Part shown: positions 35 to 20,644 of the stretch, piece by piece
Layout of the letters: each line of letters opens with the position of its first letter
How positions within the stretch are numbered: the stretch's first letter is position 1
Virus record (IMG/VR): IMGVR_UViG_3300031999_005246
Coordinates: 1-21,640 of that record
Length of the DNA stretch: 21,640 nt
Source of the DNA: a virus
Reading direction: 5' to 3' (one strand)
The notes under the pieces: model-generated
The model's database searches: none
The model's input: only the letters and a program-made list of their open reading frames with translations
What the model was told of the DNA's origin: nothing
Position numbers and translations under genes: made by a program

Positions 35-499
35 ATGAAGGTGACCTGGTTAGATGTGCATAAGACAGTTAATCGTATGACACTCTACTTGGAGCAGGTG
101 CACAGTATGAATAGGTTGTTTGGACATACGATAGTCGGTATTTCGAGAGGGGGACTTGTGCCCGCTGTAATGCTATCTAACCGGTTCGAGGATTTGCCCT
201 TCCAGATTGTGCAAGTGCAACGTTATCATGGCGAAAAGATGCAGTGGAAAACGTTTAAAGAGATTGTGAAGGATGCCACTTATCATCTAAATAAGGGGCC
301 ATATATCTTCATTGATGATATATGCGATGAAGGGTTGACCTTTAGAGCGTTGGATTTAGCAAAGAGTGATGAGGATAACTTGTATTGTTGTCTAGTTTGG
401 CGGAACAATGAGAGAAGTCAGTTTAAACCGAATTATGCAGGTATGACGATAGATAGTAAGGAGTGGGTGGTATTTCCATGGGAGAAAACACAGAGCTGA
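35..499 (+). CDS. Purine-type phosphoribosyltransferase
   Basis: This 154-residue protein looks like a type I phosphoribosyltransferase of the xanthine/hypoxanthine-guanine kind, which joins a purine base to PRPP to give a nucleoside monophosphate. Visible signatures are the N-terminal GISRGGLVP loop (35-43), the PRPP-binding strand and loop IFIDDICDEGLTF (91-103, with DEG where DTG is usual) and a C-terminal WVVFPWE (144-150), typical of short microbial guanine/xanthine PRTases. A purine-rich AGAGGGGGG lies just before the ATG, which abuts the TAG of the upstream gene. It is the gene directly before folE2, and their ends overlap by 22 bases. Plain purine salvage is the simplest role. Acting on a 7-deazaguanine base such as preQ0 is an inference from the neighbours only. 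The fold is clear; the substrate is not. Confidence 0.8.
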   Translation: MKVTWLDVHKTVNRMTLYLEQVHSMNRLFGHTIVGISRGGLVPAVMLSNRFEDLPFQIVQVQRYHGEKMQWKTFKEIVKDATYHLNKGPYIFIDDICDEGLTFRALDLAKSDEDNLYCCLVWRNNERSQFKPNYAGMTIDSKEWVVFPWEKTQS

Positions 500-1293
500 A
501 AGATGTGCAGGGATTGCCTGATGACAGGGACATCGTTATAGATATGGTGGGTGTTAGGGAGGTGGAATGGCCCATTAAGCTAAAGGATAGAGTAAACGAG
601 ATTCAATACACTAATGCAAAGTTTGCGATGTATGTAAGATTGCCTAAGGAACAAAAGGGTACGCATATGAGTCGATTTGTAGAGGCTCTGGTCACCTTTT
701 CTAACAACGATGAGTTCTTCTCAATGGATGTAATGGCAGATAAAATGTCACCTTATATTGCTAAGGACTTGAATGCAGAGTTTGTGCATATAGAATGTGA
801 GTTCACGTATTTCCTAGATGTGTTATCTCCAGAGACTAAGATTAGGTCTAAGCTGCCAGTTAAGGTGTGTTTTATAATAGAGTATCATAGCCAGAGTCAA
901 TTGAAGCATAAGGGATTGGAAGTTAAGGTACCCGTTACAACTTTATGCCCCTGCTCTAAGGAAATGTCAGAAACACCACACAATCAACGAGGGATAATAA
1001 CTATGCAGATACAAGCCAATGATTTCCTCTGGATTGAGGAGTTGGTTGAAATTGCGAGTAAGTCATGTAGTTGTCCCATCTTCCCGTTGCTGAAGAGACC
1101 TGATGAGAAGTTCGTGATGGATGTGGCTGGGGAGAATCCAATGTTTGTAGAGGATGTAGTAAGGGAGGTTGCTATTAGGTTAAAAAGAGATAAGAGAATT
1201 TTGTCCTTTACAGTTGGGTGTGAGAATATGGAAAGTATACATCCGCACAATGCATTTGCAACAGTGGATTGGGAGAGAGATGATAGTCCTTAA
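478..1293 (+). CDS. folE2: GTP cyclohydrolase IB (FolE2 type)
   Basis: FolE2 opens the ring of GTP to make dihydroneopterin triphosphate, the first step of both folate and 7-deazaguanine synthesis. Unlike FolE it does not depend on zinc. The 271-residue length is usual for the family. Conserved blocks are KGTHMSRF (60-67), LCPCSKE with the likely metal-binding Cys (156-162), HNQRG (168-172), ENPMFVEDVVR (219-229) and ENMESIHPHNA (249-259). The CPC and HNQR forms match bacterial FolE2 better than archaeal MptA. I chose the ATG at 478 because GGGTGG at 465-470 lies seven bases upstream; a GTG at 463 in frame sits too close to its own AAGGAG. The start overlaps the PRTase gene by 22 bases, so translation is probably coupled. 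With queC downstream, preQ0 synthesis is a likelier purpose than folate. Confidence 0.93.
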   Translation: MGENTELKDVQGLPDDRDIVIDMVGVREVEWPIKLKDRVNEIQYTNAKFAMYVRLPKEQKGTHMSRFVEALVTFSNNDEFFSMDVMADKMSPYIAKDLNAEFVHIECEFTYFLDVLSPETKIRSKLPVKVCFIIEYHSQSQLKHKGLEVKVPVTTLCPCSKEMSETPHNQRGIITMQIQANDFLWIEELVEIASKSCSCPIFPLLKRPDEKFVMDVAGENPMFVEDVVREVAIRLKRDKRILSFTVGCENMESIHPHNAFATVDWERDDSP

Positions 1294-1311
1294 TTGGACG
1301 GGAGGTGAATA

Positions 1312-1551
1312 ATGCCAGAAATCGGAGAACACGTAATATTTGTGGATGCATACGGCCATAGACACGATGCTCTGCTTGTCGAAGTACACGGCGGAGTTGG
1401 ATATCCGAATCCGCCAGTGAACCTGGTCTATGTCTCAGGTAATATCGATGAGAGGGACCCCAATGGCAGGCAGATAAAGAGAGAGAGTAGTGTCGTCCAC
1501 AAGCTCCATCAAGCAGCACACGGAATGTTCTGGATGGAGGCCCCGAAGTAG
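1312..1551 (+). CDS. Conserved small phage protein, function unknown
   Basis: This 79-residue protein starts at an ATG preceded by a near-perfect GGGAGGTGA. It has a recognisable pattern seen in many phage hypothetical proteins: an N-terminal EIGEHVIFVDAYGHRHDALL strand pair, a central NLVYVSGN, then DPNGRQIKRESSVVHK and a final HGMFW. I know this pattern only as an uncharacterised family in tailed phages and some prophages. No membrane segment, Cys cluster or catalytic motif is visible. It follows folE2 by 18 bases and is part of the same operon. The local base composition is richer in G and C than the two genes on either side. Confidence 0.8.
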   Translation: MPEIGEHVIFVDAYGHRHDALLVEVHGGVGYPNPPVNLVYVSGNIDERDPNGRQIKRESSVVHKLHQAAHGMFWMEAPK

Positions 1552-1619
1552 ACAAACGTCTTCGATAGTACAAACCGATGAGGGATGGAAATCTGGCATT
1601 ATTCACAAGGAGTGATATT

Positions 1620-1817
1620 ATGATAGTAAGGGTTATAGATTTGGGAGAAGAAGGAAATCCCAGGATAGAATTTCAAACAGAGGGGTGTTCTTGTTGTTCA
1701 ACTACTTTATATCCAGATAATGTTGAAGAGATAAGGAAGGAATTAATGGAACATACTAAAATAGTTAAGGAAGTTTGCAAAATCCTGGGGTGGGATACAA
1801 AGGAGTTTTTATCATGA
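1620..1817 (+). CDS. Small Cys-containing protein, function unknown
   Basis: A 65-residue protein, unrecognised. The ATG at 1620 is chosen because AAGGAG at 1607-1612 lies seven bases before it; an ATG at 1578 in frame would add 14 residues but has a weaker site. The N-terminal part is a predicted beta pair (MIVRVIDLGEEGNPRIEF) leading into GCSCCS, a tight Cys trio that could bind a metal. The rest looks helical (NVEEIRKELMEHTKIVKEVCKIL). The stop overlaps the next start as ATGA, so it is translationally coupled to the uracil-DNA glycosylase gene. No function can be assigned. Confidence 0.7.
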   Translation: MIVRVIDLGEEGNPRIEFQTEGCSCCSTTLYPDNVEEIRKELMEHTKIVKEVCKILGWDTKEFLS

Positions 1818-2470
1818 GAGAGTGTATAGCAAAGTGTGATGGGTGTACTCTTCACATACCTGAGGAGGTATTAGCTACAGCACCAGTGGAGGCGGTGTTT
1901 GTTAATGGGGAGGGCCCCCAACCAGCTGAGTTGATGTTTGTGGGAGAAGCCCCCGGAGAGAATGAAGTATTGCAGAAGAGACCTTTCGTCGGGAGAAGTG
2001 GTCAACAATTGAATAGGCTCCTTGAAAAAGTTAACATAAAGAGGACAGGTTGTCGCATATCCAACTCATGTATTTGTCGCCCGCCTAATAACAGACCACC
2101 TACAGTCGACGAAGTGAACTCCTGCCGCCCATCCCTTTGGGCCGAGGTGGAAGATACCAATCCTCGGATTATTGTGGCTTTGGGGAGGACCGCATACTCC
2201 TCACTAATGAACGTACCAATGGAACTAATCCCTGATTTGGATGCCCACCATGGTTTCGTATATCCATGCTGGATAGGTGGCCCAAGGAAGCTACTCTTTA
2301 CCTACCACCCGTCTGCAACTTTGAGGTCCATCCTTTGGGAGTCCCATTGTAGGGACGACTTACGAAGAATTGGTGAATTGTTGACCACTGAAGAGGTGAT
2401 TATAGACAATGTCACATGGAGAAATTCGTTGTATAACTTGCCGAAGTCAGGGGTTAATCAAGTCTTGTAA
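1814..2470 (+). CDS. Family 4 uracil-DNA glycosylase with [4Fe-4S] cluster
   Basis: This 218-residue enzyme belongs to the family 4 uracil-DNA glycosylases, which cut uracil bases out of DNA. Motif 1 is GEAPGENE (44-51), followed by RPFVGRSG; the second active-site motif is HPSATLR (165-171). The iron-sulphur ligands fit the family exactly: a C-x2-C pair at Cys8 and Cys11 and a C-x15-C pair at Cys88 and Cys104, with the typical CRPPNNRPPT between. The ATG at 1814 has AAGGAG at about 1800-1805, eight bases upstream, and overlaps the preceding stop as ATGA. The second half of the gene is visibly richer in GCC/CCC codons than its neighbours. The role in a virus may be repair of deaminated cytosine during replication; a link to DNA modification is only contextual. 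Confidence 0.9.
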   Translation: MRECIAKCDGCTLHIPEEVLATAPVEAVFVNGEGPQPAELMFVGEAPGENEVLQKRPFVGRSGQQLNRLLEKVNIKRTGCRISNSCICRPPNNRPPTVDEVNSCRPSLWAEVEDTNPRIIVALGRTAYSSLMNVPMELIPDLDAHHGFVYPCWIGGPRKLLFTYHPSATLRSILWESHCRDDLRRIGELLTTEEVIIDNVTWRNSLYNLPKSGVNQVL

Positions 2471-2481
2471 GGGGTGCAAAG

Positions 2482-2726
2482 ATGGGTCAAGGTATAGAGC
2501 AAAGAATGATATGCCTGTATCTGAGCCTGGTCATAGATGATTGGAGGAAAGGTAAATACCAATAGTTGAGGGAAGAGATTATAGGGTGGTTAGTCTGGAG
2601 TATCAGATTCAGCAACCCTGTTGCAAATGCGAGACCGCTGATGCACCCAGGTTCATTAGAGTATATAGGAATAAAGCTGGAGAGATAGTTAATCATGGTA
2701 TATGTAGGTGTAAATGTCATGAGTGA
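2482..2726 (+). pseudogene. Small zinc-finger-like gene, apparently frameshifted
   Basis: Two open frames seem to be halves of one small gene. The first starts at ATG 2482, with AAGGGGTG just upstream, and encodes 27 residues ending KGKYQ before TAG 2563-2565. The second frame is open from 2556 to TGA 2724-2726, with no ATG of its own, and reads VEGRDYRVVSLEYQIQQ, then CCKC, then a final CRCKCHE, a plausible four-Cys metal site. Moving from the first frame to the second near 2554-2560 needs a -1 shift and gives a natural-looking joined protein of about 80 residues. The stop overlaps the next gene's ATG (2719) as in the rest of the operon. It could be a true mutation, an assembly indel, programmed frameshifting, or a separate 46-residue gene starting at GTG 2586. 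Confidence 0.45.
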
Positions 2727-2943
2727 GAGAGATAAGGTTCGGCAGACGTTTGGCAATAGGCAAAGGTGGGCCTGCCAAAGACACCAGTGCGGAATGAATA
2801 AGAAAGAGGTTTGCCAAGATAAGGACAGGTATCCTTGCCTCGATGCTCTGCCCACATATTTGGGGTCTATGTTTGATAGAGCAATGGAGATAGCTGAGAA
2901 GAAAGTGGACCCTAAGCAAAGAGGATTGGGGGATTTTAAATGA
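2719..2943 (+). CDS. Small Cys-rich protein, function unknown
   Basis: A 74-residue unrecognised protein. The ATG at 2719 is preferred over an in-frame ATG at 2695 because AGGTG at 2706-2710 lies eight bases ahead of it. The N-terminal half is basic and contains four Cys and a His in the segment WACQRHQCGMNKKEVCQ plus a following YPC, which could bind zinc or an iron-sulphur cluster. The C-terminal half is probably helical (YLGSMFDRAMEIAEKK). The stop overlaps the next start as ATGA (2940-2943). It is one of a run of small Cys-rich genes between the glycosylase and queC. Function unknown. Confidence 0.65.
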   Translation: MSERDKVRQTFGNRQRWACQRHQCGMNKKEVCQDKDRYPCLDALPTYLGSMFDRAMEIAEKKVDPKQRGLGDFK

Positions 2944-3314
2944 CAGAAGCAGATGTAGATAAGGGAGTAAGGTTTATATGCCCTTGTCAAATTAAAGTGG
3001 AAACATTACCAGAAGGGAAAGTAGTGAAGTTACAGGAACCAGAATACTTACTTATACATAACGATGGTCGCCATTGCTTTAAGTGCAACATATGTTGGGT
3101 AGTTTGCGTAAGGTGTGGAGACGTGACAGATGCAAAGAAGTCATCTTATGGTGGCTCTAGAGCATTTGGAACTGGTCACTACTGCGATAGATGTAATCAT
3201 GAGATATATGGCCATCACCGCGGAATATGTCTCAAAGAACATCTTAAACAGGATTTAAAGAATAGGAAGAATAATATTCACCCAAAAGATTGTCCAATTT
3301 ACGAGGTGGTTTAA
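2940..3314 (+). CDS. Cys/His-rich zinc-finger-like protein
   Basis: A 124-residue protein with at least three candidate metal-binding knots: CPC near residue 14, the cluster CFKCNICWVVCVRCG (about 46-60), and CDRC followed by HHRGIC (about 82-98), with a last Cys near the C-terminus. Such density of Cys pairs suggests one or two treble-clef or ribbon zinc fingers, used for binding nucleic acid or protein. I do not recognise the family. The ATG overlaps the upstream stop (ATGA), and the gene ends one base before the next ATG, so it is a core member of the operon. Confidence 0.7.
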   Translation: MTEADVDKGVRFICPCQIKVETLPEGKVVKLQEPEYLLIHNDGRHCFKCNICWVVCVRCGDVTDAKKSSYGGSRAFGTGHYCDRCNHEIYGHHRGICLKEHLKQDLKNRKNNIHPKDCPIYEVV

Positions 3315-3614
3315 ATGAAGATAATCAGTGAATCTGTGATTAAGGTAGAGTTACCAATAAAGGGGTTTAAGCTTGAACACATCTTGCAAGCTCATGATAC
3401 CATAATGATAAGATATAATAAAGATATAGACTCTATATGGGTGCATCCAAAGGTTATGATGCAGTTACAAGATATGTTAATGGCTCATAATTATAGTATG
3501 TCTTATATGGGTTTAAGTCCAATAACATTATTTGGAATAAAGATAGAAGTGGATGTCCATATAAGTGAGGATGTAGTACAATTGTGGACGAAGCCAGAGA
3601 AGGTGATTATATGA
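3315..3614 (+). CDS. Hypothetical protein (99 residues)
   Basis: No family is recognised. The start ATG directly follows the previous TAA and has GAGGTGG at about 3302-3308. The sequence alternates hydrophobic and polar residues (ESVIKVELPIKGF; HDTIMIRYNKDIDSIWVHP), suggesting a small alpha/beta protein, with a Met-rich middle. The phrase SIWVHPKVMMQL, followed by SPITLFGIKIEVD near the end, has the layout seen in small phage proteins with a capsid-related or binding beta sheet, but this is not enough to assign a role. It overlaps the next gene as ATGA. Confidence 0.65.
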   Translation: MKIISESVIKVELPIKGFKLEHILQAHDTIMIRYNKDIDSIWVHPKVMMQLQDMLMAHNYSMSYMGLSPITLFGIKIEVDVHISEDVVQLWTKPEKVII

Positions 3615-3883
3615 TGAATAATGGTGTGCAGATGCAAAAGTGTATAGTATGTGGGGCCGAATATATGGGGCATCACTACTGTCCCAATATCAAGATAAAT
3701 TGGTCAGGATACACCTCCCCCTTGAGTGTGTACACTTGGTACAAATGCCCGAATTGTCATGGAGAATTCTCCCAGTGGGATGCTGTTCAAAGCACAGGAA
3801 CATCAATGAGGCAATTCTGCCCCTTTTGCAATATGGAGAAGGCGACATATCCTAAGATAAGAGAAGGAGATGTGGGAAAATGA
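3611..3883 (+). CDS. Zinc-ribbon protein, function unknown
   Basis: A 90-residue protein with three Cys pairs: CIVCGAEYMGHHYC near the N-terminus, CPNCHGEF in the middle and CPFC near the end, arranged like a double zinc ribbon. The ATG at 3611 is chosen because GAGAAGGTGAT at 3597-3606 precedes it and the start overlaps the previous stop; a longer frame from 3584 begins inside the upstream gene without a good site. Its stop overlaps the queC start as ATGA, so it is coupled to queC. It may be a nucleic-acid-binding or adaptor protein. A direct link with preQ0 chemistry is not shown. Confidence 0.7.
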   Translation: MMNNGVQMQKCIVCGAEYMGHHYCPNIKINWSGYTSPLSVYTWYKCPNCHGEFSQWDAVQSTGTSMRQFCPFCNMEKATYPKIREGDVGK

Positions 3884-4578
3884 GCAATGTTGTATGTTTG
3901 GTATCTGGCGGTCTAGATTCGGCGACGGTCTTAGGGTTGATGTTAGCTGAGGGCCATTATGTCTTCCCCCGGACTTTCAATTATGGTCAACTCCACAAGA
4001 GAGAGCTCGAAAGTGCACAGCAGGTGGTCTGGTACTACCAACGCATGTTTCCCGCGCAGTTAGCGACCTTAGAGGTGGTTGAGCTGCTCTTCCTGAAGAA
4101 GCTTGGTGGTAGCGCACTCACTGACCCAACCCTTGCAGTCCCCCTACAAAGAACCGACGGTGAAATGTCTAAGAAGATTCCCATAACCTATGTCCCCGGT
4201 CGTAATACCATCCTGCTATCTGTTGCCCTCTCCATCGCCGAAGTCAAAGATGCCGATGGCGTTGCCATTGGTGTCAACGCTTTAGATTACTCAGGATATG
4301 CCGACTGTCGACCAGAATACATAGATGCTATGAATGGGGTGGCCAAGCTCTCTTCAAAAAGGGCAGTGGAGGGCCGCCCAATAACAATACTCGCCCCCCT
4401 TCTGCATATGACAAAGCGTGACATAATACTTAAAGGCACGGAGATTGGAGTCCCATACGAGTTAACCTGGTCTTGCTACCAGGGAGGAGGGAAACCCTGT
4501 GGCAAATGTGACTCCTGCATTCTCCGTGCCCGGGGCTTTGAGGAAGCCGGACTCAAAGACCCCTCTCTATCATCCTGA
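3880..4578 (+). CDS. queC: 7-cyano-7-deazaguanine (preQ0) synthase QueC
   Basis: QueC uses ATP and ammonia to convert 7-carboxy-7-deazaguanine to preQ0, the precursor of queuosine, archaeosine and several modified DNA bases. The 232-residue length is standard. The PP-loop SGGLDS lies at 9-14, FNYGQ at 33-37, YVPGRNT at 104-110 and GVNALDYSGYADCRPE at 131-146. The C-terminal zinc site has Cys199, Cys207, Cys210 and Cys213 in SCY...PCGKCDSC. All key residues are present, so the enzyme should be active. The start overlaps the zinc-ribbon gene as ATGA. The gene uses many GCC, CCC and CTC codons, unlike its AT-rich neighbours, which hints at separate acquisition. The stop overlaps the convergent minus-strand gene by nine bases. 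Confidence 0.96.
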   Translation: MSNVVCLVSGGLDSATVLGLMLAEGHYVFPRTFNYGQLHKRELESAQQVVWYYQRMFPAQLATLEVVELLFLKKLGGSALTDPTLAVPLQRTDGEMSKKIPITYVPGRNTILLSVALSIAEVKDADGVAIGVNALDYSGYADCRPEYIDAMNGVAKLSSKRAVEGRPITILAPLLHMTKRDIILKGTEIGVPYELTWSCYQGGGKPCGKCDSCILRARGFEEAGLKDPSLSS

Positions 4579-18313: not shown

Positions 18314-18943
18314 TTACCACATCGGTTGCCAGGTCGAACCATCATACATTTCGCCCTTTCCAGAAGTATCATTAAAGATTATCATTCCCTTACCAGGAGT
18401 TCCAGGCTTATTACCACTTGCCATTACTGGTACCTGGATATATTGTCCATCTCCCATTACTTGAACACTGCACCCATTGGTTGGACTTCCAACAGTTACA
18501 TCTGCAAAAAACTTGGCCGTCCTAGCTAACCCATCATCCACCCCCACTTGGAAGTTCCCCATCACTATGAAATTACCGGGAACACTCTCTGGATACCCTA
18601 ACACTCTTCCTATAACCTTCATAAAATCCTGTACGACCACATACTGCAAATCCTCTGAGGTATCCTCCAACATAATCTCATAGTAATAAAGACCGGGCTC
18701 AATCTCTTTACTATCATCATTCAATAACGTTACCTTTAGCTGGCCCTTCGCCGCACTAACAACCGTTATCCCTGCACCCAACGTCTTGTGAATAATCAAC
18801 GTAGGAGATTCCTTATTGGTCTTCACAGTAAAGTGAATCCCATCATAGTTAGTTAAGTTCAACACCTCTCCATTATTATTAGTCACGCTACAGGTAAGCT
18901 GGAGAGCATCTCCCTGATATATACTAAATGCCTTACTGCCCAT
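18314..18943 (-). CDS. BppU-like N-terminal-domain protein, copy 1 (long)
   Basis: A 209-residue protein from the ATG at 18943, which has GGAAGGGTGG just upstream; an in-frame ATG at 18958 is inside the previous gene. Residues about 1-120 are the same domain as in the neighbouring short copy (IYQGDALQLTCSVTNNNGEV, then VVSAAKGQLKVTLLNDD and LEDTSEDLQYVVVQDF). The C-terminal part, about 85 residues, is Gly-rich (FIVMGNFQVGVDDG, PGTPGKGMIIFNDTS) and ends in a Trp-containing EMYDGSTWQPMW like many fibre or appendage tips. It may form a fibre at the neck or capsid. Exact role unknown. Confidence 0.65.
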   Translation of the reverse strand: MGSKAFSIYQGDALQLTCSVTNNNGEVLNLTNYDGIHFTVKTNKESPTLIIHKTLGAGITVVSAAKGQLKVTLLNDDSKEIEPGLYYYEIMLEDTSEDLQYVVVQDFMKVIGRVLGYPESVPGNFIVMGNFQVGVDDGLARTAKFFADVTVGSPTNGCSVQVMGDGQYIQVPVMASGNKPGTPGKGMIIFNDTSGKGEMYDGSTWQPMW

Positions 18944-19238
18944 TATCCACCCTTCCATTAATCATTACTTGATTCCCAACCACCACTTCTCCACTTTCCA
19001 TATTGATTTGAAACTTCTGCCCTTGAGGAATACCAAGACGTTGGCCTATCTTAGTCTGTAAATCATTCTGATAATCCATCTTCATAGTGAGCTTTTGCAA
19101 AAGCTGGCTCTTCCTCAGTTCAATATTAACTACTTCTCTACAGATCATGTCCATAAAGCCATTTACCTCTTTCAGTTGCTCTAGCTCACCAGACGTTATC
19201 TTGGGTATTTCCTTTTGACTTTCTTCTAAATCTTTCAT
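18933..19238 (-). CDS. Coiled-coil small virion-region protein
   Basis: A 101-residue protein with a long heptad-like helix (ELEQLKEVNGFMDMICREVV, continuing to about residue 70), followed by IGQRLGIPQGQKFQINMES and a short strand pair ending in VMINGRVD. The coil-then-'LGIPxG' layout occurs in several uncharacterised phage proteins encoded near head or tail genes. The stop overlaps the next start by 11 bases. It may trimerise the appendage protein encoded next to it, but this is inference. Confidence 0.6.
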   Translation of the reverse strand: MKDLEESQKEIPKITSGELEQLKEVNGFMDMICREVVNIELRKSQLLQKLTMKMDYQNDLQTKIGQRLGIPQGQKFQINMESGEVVVGNQVMINGRVDNGQ

Positions 19239-19243
19239 TATGT

Positions 19244-20644
19244 TTAACCTCCTCCAGCATACCCTTGTGAACTATAACCAGTAAACGGTTTAAATGTATA
19301 TGGCCACGGCTTACCATAAACCATACTATACTTCTCCGTTCCAGTTGGCTCCAGCACCCACTTTTGATAATCGCTCATATTCCATTGTTTTAAAAGCAAC
19401 TTCTTTTCAGCAGCATCAGACATTTTTAACATAACTCTCTCTGATTCAGACACTTTACGACTTCCACTTACACTCTTTAAAATATCACCCAAATTATCAA
19501 TTATCTTTTCCAATAAGGGTTTTAATATAGGTCTTCTTGGTATGTGGATAAATTTCTTATTCCCCTTTATATGCCACCCTTGACTATGTAAATATGCCCT
19601 CATTTGAGGTGTAATTACTATATCCATTCCAAATTCATGAATATTGAATAAATAACCTGCTGAACCTTCTGCTATTCGAACTATAACAGGCTTCATCCCA
19701 TTAGAATCAGCTTCGCCAAGGCGAATCTTGGTAGTATCACCCCAATGTCCTTTCAACCTACCAGTATGAACTAACACTTGATTTAATGAACCAGATGGAG
19801 GCCCACCTTTTGTTCCAGTAGATGTAATGTGTCTAACCATACGTTGTCTCAAATATAGGGTCACCTTACATAACTGCTCCCACTTCGGCTCAAATCCACC
19901 CTTTTGAAAAATCTCATTATAATATTCCAACACTTTATGTGCAACAGCCATCATATTATGTTGCACTTTCTCTTGCCAATCCCTATCTCCAATATACACT
20001 ATCGGAGGTCTATTTTTTCCAGCATCCGGCCCTATGGTATGGGCCAAAGCCCAAGCTATAGAATCAGTGTGTTTATCAAGAACAAAGAAATTAATAATAG
20101 CCGCAGCATCACCAGTATAAGATACCTTCATTGTGCGTTTAACTTCAATAAACTTCTTCTCTGCATCATCTGGTGAAATGGGGGGTTTTTGATTAGCAGC
20201 ATCTTGAAACCAAGAATCAGGTGGTACAACTGTACCCATATACCTCTCTAATGAAGCAAACTCATCAACGGCAGCTAAATCCTTTTCTATTTTAGCCGTT
20301 TCTTTCAACCAATATTCATTTGCAATATTCTGCTGAGCTACTACTGAACTTCTTTGCCAAGCAGCAACATTTCCCCCCGGTATATCAAAATCTAAACCTT
20401 TCCGACTCCGCTTTATATCATCAAAATCCACATCAGGTATCCTTTCATATTTAACAAACTCAGGTTTAGGAGGCGAAGGAGTAGGAGTTGTTAACTTCTG
20501 ACCAATCCTATCTGGTAATTTAACATCCCACAGATAAGACTTCCTAGAAGCATAATCCTGATATTCATAATCAGACTTACCATGATAAGTTGAGGGTTTA
20601 GCCTTAGCTCCCCAATACTTACCCGTAGGATCTTCTTCTGTCAT
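19244..20644 (-). CDS. Phage virion morphogenesis (Mu gpG / tail completion) protein with long N-terminal extension
   Basis: Residues about 225-385 of this 466-residue protein match the virion morphogenesis / tail completion family: LVHTGRL (291-297), YLFNIHEFG (331-339), YLHSQGWHIKG (351-361) and FIHIPRRPIL (365-374). That family is normally about 150 residues long and helps join heads and tails. Here some 220 extra residues precede it: a Pro- and Tyr-rich, probably flexible start, then helical parts (NIANEYWLKETAKIEKDLAA). About 80 Lys/Ser-rich residues follow it. I chose ATG 20644, six bases after GAGGG, over ATG 20650. Its place next to the capsid and connector genes agrees with a head-completion role. 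The extension's role is unknown. Confidence 0.7.
   Translation of the reverse strand: MTEEDPTGKYWGAKAKPSTYHGKSDYEYQDYASRKSYLWDVKLPDRIGQKLTTPTPSPPKPEFVKYERIPDVDFDDIKRSRKGLDFDIPGGNVAAWQRSSVVAQQNIANEYWLKETAKIEKDLAAVDEFASLERYMGTVVPPDSWFQDAANQKPPISPDDAEKKFIEVKRTMKVSYTGDAAAIINFFVLDKHTDSIAWALAHTIGPDAGKNRPPIVYIGDRDWQEKVQHNMMAVAHKVLEYYNEIFQKGGFEPKWEQLCKVTLYLRQRMVRHITSTGTKGGPPSGSLNQVLVHTGRLKGHWGDTTKIRLGEADSNGMKPVIVRIAEGSAGYLFNIHEFGMDIVITPQMRAYLHSQGWHIKGNKKFIHIPRRPILKPLLEKIIDNLGDILKSVSGSRKVSESERVMLKMSDAAEKKLLLKQWNMSDYQKWVLEPTGTEKYSMVYGKPWPYTFKPFTGYSSQGYAGGG

Follow-up and report, generated by a model that had tools for sequence, protein, structure and literature searches.

The 21,640 b stretch of DNA analysed in the current work (hereafter the window), which constitutes an entire linear viral record and represents a contig fragment, is, with a probability of roughly 0.8, the left end of a phage contig with relatives that possess all genes of a 7-deazaguanine DNA-modification system. 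The initial annotation had proposed a viral preQ0/7-deazaguanine DNA pathway, and this reading is supported by the full set of genes present in relatives, including queD, queE and a gene for a DpdA-type transglycosylase. By comparison with these relatives, synthesis of preQ0 by the virus, followed by insertion of preQ0 or a derivative into its own DNA, is most likely; the queD and dpdA genes of the window virus would be located outside the contig, while the activities of the encoded proteins, the inserted base and an anti-restriction role are likewise presumed.

The minus strand of the window codes, from approximately 4.9 kb to its end, for baseplate wedge, hub, tape measure, sheath and head proteins, and the window is therefore assigned to a contractile-tailed phage. 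The other end opens with the 3’ end of queE (positions 2-34, + strand; translated as YIWPDTKRGV* and truncated at the contig end), followed by a gene (35-499, + strand) specifying a purine-type phosphoribosyltransferase (PRT; PF00156, phrog_8995) with the PRPP loop IFIDDICDEG and the C-terminal sequence WVVFPWE. The 3’ end of the PRT gene overlaps the start (478) of folE2 (478-1293, + strand), encoding GTP cyclohydrolase IB, the entry enzyme of preQ0 synthesis, as identified by Pfam and NCBIfam models. The gene run further comprises a small protein gene (1312-1551, + strand), a similar protein of which adjoins queC in the relative G1 (see below) on the opposite strand (L002 13192-13488, -), a conserved neighbour encoding a family 4 uracil-DNA glycosylase (UDG4; 1814-2470, + strand; TIGR00758 at 138.5 bits versus a cut-off of 125.3), four small ORFs (2695-2943, 2940-3314, 3315-3614 and ~3611-3883, all + strand), and queC (3880-4578, + strand), encoding 7-cyano-7-deazaguanine (preQ0) synthase, as indicated by TIGR00364 and motifs. 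Two of the four small ORFs are Cys-rich and zinc-ribbon-like, and similar proteins are present in G1 for two of them. The queE tail, the PRT gene and the UDG4 gene had been absent from the initial annotation, which had placed folE2 and queC in one operon: both genes are indeed on the + strand, within a run of approximately ten genes and with no terminator-like site found on that strand between them, from which a single operon appears likely rather than certain. UDG4 is encoded directly after folE2 in the window, in G1 (L002:10707-11396) and in L114 (16083-16586), and may possibly help to exclude uracil or altered bases from the phage genome.

FolE2 and QueC are genuine, intact and viral, considering scores above the cut-offs of curated models, solved relatives, active-site positions and the tailed-phage contig on which they are encoded. 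The FolE2 ORF (463/478-1293, + strand; 271 aa counted from the ATG at 478) obtained 263.5 bits with the Pfam model GCHY-1 (cut-off 25) and 243.5 bits with the equivalog NF010200 (NCBIfam), this being above the cut-off of 215, and remained under the cut-offs for MptA (143 versus 220) and archaeal GTP-CH IV (73 versus 468). The key residues, previously described as intact in both enzymes, are C157, H168, E225, E252 and H255 in FolE2, which are invariant across four viral FolE2s and occupy positions that we take to be catalytic in GTP-CH IB. QueC (232 aa; TIGR00364 at 187.3 bits versus a cut-off of 150.3) retains its SGGLDS loop and a four-Cys zinc site (C199/C207/C210/C213). Since QueC and QueD normally use zinc, the presence of FolE2 does not render the pathway zinc-free.

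The remainder of the pathway is found in relatives, among which G1 (IMGVR_UViG_3300037011_000606, 95,097 b) is taken as complete (circular) on account of an exact 125-b end repeat. G1 encodes QueD (27270-27770), QueE (27721-28494), PRT (28495-28893), FolE2 (28890-29699, with UDG4 next) and QueC (31320-32036), its FolE2, QueC and PRT being 62%, 68% and 52% identical, respectively, to those of the window. The QueE of G1 ends in YIWPEVKRGV* and adjoins PRT in the same way as the queE tail of the window. Located upstream in G1 are genes for PolB, a MazG/dUTPase-2-like protein, a class II RNR, an HD protein and a PD-(D/E)XK protein, and the order common to G1 and the 41-kb L193/L114 is DpdA, PolB, MazG-like protein, class II RNR, QueD, QueE, PRT, FolE2, UDG4 and QueC. 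Of the genes for which a search in the rest of the genome had been suggested, queD and queE are thus present in G1 and L193, in which GTP cyclohydrolase, QueD, QueE and QueC form a complete set, the window itself containing only FolE2, QueC and the 3’ end of queE; the G1 QueD score of 80.2 is just below the QueD equivalog cut-off of 89.25, and G1 QueE is below its cut-offs. QueF was not matched in G1, which makes preQ0 or ADG the likely base. Another contig of 14 kb (G2) can be aligned with the window along 5.8 kb at 87% DNA identity, the shared region starting within queC and extending into the tail genes. As a separate observation, a 627-aa ORF of L114 (956-2839, -) contains an apparent intein-like insert when compared with its 387-aa homologue in L113.

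Neither DpdA nor queD is encoded in the 21,640-b window, and the initial statement that it contains no DpdA-type gene is correct, the contig being cut before the place that dpdA holds in relatives, i.e. ~9 kb upstream of PRT and adjoining the DNA polymerase gene. The Pfam TGT model (PF01702) did not match in G0, G1 or G2, nor in 23 other viral records, most of which encode the DpdA type described here; a first reading of this null result, by which DpdA would be absent, was dropped because the model misses this type. The candidate in G1 (18569-19330) is a 261-aa protein encoded directly upstream of PolB, which weakly matches phrog_20335 and resembles the annotated DNA guanine transglycosylase of Flavobacterium phage immuto, which in turn shares 43-44% identity with a protein from a Campylobacter phage. 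Iterated profiles seeded with either the G1 protein or the immuto DpdA reach the same 19 viral ORFs, the alignment of which keeps D59, N60, E64, D90, Q133, R172, H186, G189, E195 and D213; D59, D90, Q133, H186, G189 and D213, including the conserved Asp pair and the Gln of TGT, are invariant in G1-type DpdA. The AlphaFold2 model of the G1 protein (pLDDT 85.5) retrieved TGT or DpdA structures in all of the 48 best Foldseek PDB matches, and superimposed on the solved DNA preQ0 insertase DpdA (7ui4) with a VIA Z of 17.3 and 2.9 A over 225 residues. The protein is a divergent DpdA, a type that also occurs in Campylobacter phages, and has the predicted TIM-barrel fold of TGT.

The sister contigs L113 and L209 encode a DpdA 51% identical to that of G1, which in L113 adjoins PolB. 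L113 shares its metagenome number with G2; that L113 and L209 belong to the lineage of the window is likely rather than certain, and tetranucleotide composition gave no assignment of either to the window's own virus. With DpdA-type genes found in G1, L193, L113 and L209, the insertion step, for which a search for a DpdA/TGT-like gene beyond the window had been proposed, is closed in these relatives.

In the pathway that we propose, FolE2 would convert GTP to dihydroneopterin triphosphate, from which QueD and QueE would generate 7-carboxy-7-deazaguanine as substrate for the production of preQ0 by QueC. The DpdA-type transglycosylase, encoded beside the DNA polymerase, would then exchange guanine in phage DNA for preQ0 or its amide ADG, and the DNA modified in this manner would be protected from host nucleases. 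Each exchange would expel one guanine, and because guanine is released by base exchange, a guanine-type PRT would remove it, using PRPP to form GMP. Such removal would pull the exchange forward, and the guanine would be recycled into GTP, the substrate pool of FolE2. This salvage of DpdA-expelled guanine by PRT is our own proposal. Its extension, according to which PRT is a dedicated, hitherto unnoticed component of viral guanine-replacement systems that drives the reversible exchange to high or complete replacement of dG, phages without PRT being only partly modified, is put forward tentatively, as somewhat short of an even chance.

The PRT of the window scored 41.8 bits with PF00156 (cut-off 26.3), also matched phrog_8995 and has the purine PRT 1vdm as its best solved match, while reaching none of the XPRT/HGPRT equivalog cut-offs. 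The sequence DDICD is invariant among the PRTs, this motif itself being part of the search pattern, and their sequence contains no feature that tells a guanine from a 7-deazaguanine substrate. PRT matches occur inside preQ0 clusters of unrelated GenBank phages, namely Flavobacterium phage immuto (queD, queE, PRT, folE, dpdA, queF), Synechococcus phage BUCT-ZZ01 (queE, PRT, queD, folE) and Brevundimonas phage StAshley (folE, PRT). When IMG/VR loci were picked by PRT only, a preQ0 or DpdA gene was located within 2 kb in 62/80 and within 10 kb in 63/80, versus 2/33 loci selected as controls by means of class II RNR (Fisher p = 2.5e-13; the window's phage group was removed from the controls, many of which are short, and the loci are not all independent). 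Conversely, PRT was encoded within 10 kb in 23/80 DpdA-picked loci, making it a frequent rather than an obligate partner; it also occurs in CP220, a Campylobacter phage, and was not found in phages 9g and Quesadilla. These co-occurrences suggest that PRT is a general, recurrent partner of viral 7-deazaguanine pathways, a link to phage DpdA for which a literature search of incomplete coverage retrieved no paper.

Among PRT-bearing viral records of at least 50 kb, a transglycosylase was detected in 22/25, 17 by the DpdA profile and five by a second, 425-aa TGT-like family, with neither type detected in the other three. A first impression that a marine PRT group is devoid of DpdA was overturned by this 425-aa neighbour, which possesses TGT motifs and, in its model, the corresponding fold (match to TGT at Z 20.7). 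The 425-aa protein (phrog_10773) is encoded in marine viral QueE-PRT-FolE-QueD clusters (L016:9161-10408 of Synechococcus phage BUCT-ZZ01, L095:11582-12856 and relatives), and is probably a DNA guanine transglycosylase that has so far escaped annotation; in these records, QueC is either absent or matched in part only. The three records with PRT and neither DpdA type (L025, L026 and L054, in G028, G029 and G007; 51-146 kb), in which no preQ0 gene was present within 10 kb, are candidates for another transglycosylase or another role of PRT.

The frequent presence of a transglycosylase also bears on a pool-level route, our first hypothesis, in which PRT makes a 7-deazaguanine nucleotide that is reduced by the class II RNR and inserted by the phage polymerase. 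The phosphoribosyltransferase TubE has been proven to act with PRPP on 7-carboxy-7-deazaguanine (PMC6112128), the RNR, PolB and PRT genes are grouped in relatives, and a nucleotide-kinase gene adjoins PRT in phage phiST and folE in StAshley. Nevertheless, this route lost weight once DpdA had been recognized, first in G1 and later in the majority of long records with PRT, and is now considered unlikely: since a transglycosylase of the DpdA type occurs alongside PRT in 22 of the 25 long records and in the window's own group, no further route of insertion has to be invoked.

Alternatively, the same genes might provide additional preQ0 from which host tRNA acquires queuosine, instead of altering the phage DNA, as QueC, QueD, QueE and FolE2 serve both ends and Hutinet et al. 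raise the tRNA option for phages without DpdA (PMC6884629). However, G1 (complete) and L193 do encode a DpdA-family transglycosylase adjoining the DNA polymerase, and the lack of a QueF match in G1 likewise argues against a tRNA function, which is accordingly judged improbable. That FolE2 merely contributes to folate or pterin supply, its product feeding folate too, and that QueC is a stray gene coincidentally paired with it, would fit with the singletons of such genes also carried by phages (PMC6884629), yet G1 and L193 both retain the same gene arrangement, with queD and queE alongside, and a queE tail opens the window; coincidence is largely refuted by this synteny and has a negligible likelihood. 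Modification of phage DNA by a DpdA-type exchange is thus the reading retained, and gene-level tests in relatives place the window among known viral 7-deazaguanine systems, with the FolE2 entry and the embedded PRT as the new points.

Viral preQ0/DpdA pathways are known from Enterobacteria phages 9g and CAjan and from Mycobacterium phages (Hutinet et al. 2019, PMC6884629), with which the window group shares GTP cyclohydrolase, QueD, QueE, QueC and a TGT-superfamily DNA transglycosylase in a single genome. In contrast to these phages, the window group enters the pathway by FolE2 instead of FolE and has PRT embedded in the gene run; its DpdA is of another type than that of 9g, missed by Pfam TGT and by a 9g sequence search, and QueC of the window is single-domain, not Gat-QueC. 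Phage immuto similarly has PRT between queE and its GTP cyclohydrolase gene as well as a related DpdA, but differs in having FolE in place of FolE2 and in the presence of QueF, from which a preQ1-type base is probable. Campylobacter Firehammervirus members (CP220, CP21), in which dG is reportedly fully replaced, possess the same DpdA family as G1 (the A4 profile retrieves CP220 at 2e-67); the CP220 PRT belongs to the same family as that of the window (1e-19), the genes of CP220 being scattered whereas those of the window group are in one run. The toyocamycin and tubercidin clusters (ToyH, TubE) share genes for GTP cyclohydrolase, QueD-like and QueE-like proteins and a phosphoribosyltransferase (PMC6112128), but constitute a bacterial antibiotic pathway in which TubE acts on 7-carboxy-7-deazaguanine. 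An uncultivated phage group would hereby join the 7-deazaguanine DNA modifiers, and PRT as a recurrent DpdA partner offers an explanation, open to experiment, of how the majority of guanine could be exchanged in some phages despite the reversibility of the reaction. Phages labelled as having preQ0 genes but no DpdA by means of Pfam TGT merit re-examination, since that model misses these DpdAs.

The use of FolE2, described as unusual in the initial annotation, is indeed scarce among named phages (3/50,697 GenBank phage records), but recurs in 10/80 DpdA-picked viral contigs. In a tree for which the cellular sample was picked by similarity to the window FolE2, the FolE2s of the window, G1 and L193 cluster with bacterial FolE2s (Desulfuromonadales, Mucispirillum), apart from other viral FolE2s. 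With such a sample the tree does not fix the exact source, and shows at least two lineages of viral FolE2, that of the window having apparently been acquired independently of the others. The entry enzyme thus appears to be replaceable by FolE2, with at least two recruitments in viruses. FolE2 alignment searches gained no further window-like contigs. Divergent FolE2s, 25-28% identical to that of the window, occur in viral preQ0/DpdA clusters (L024:4380-5339, L050:10419-11465, L157 and L182), on contigs which include ones of 156 kb and 292 kb, and represent a separate recruitment of FolE2.
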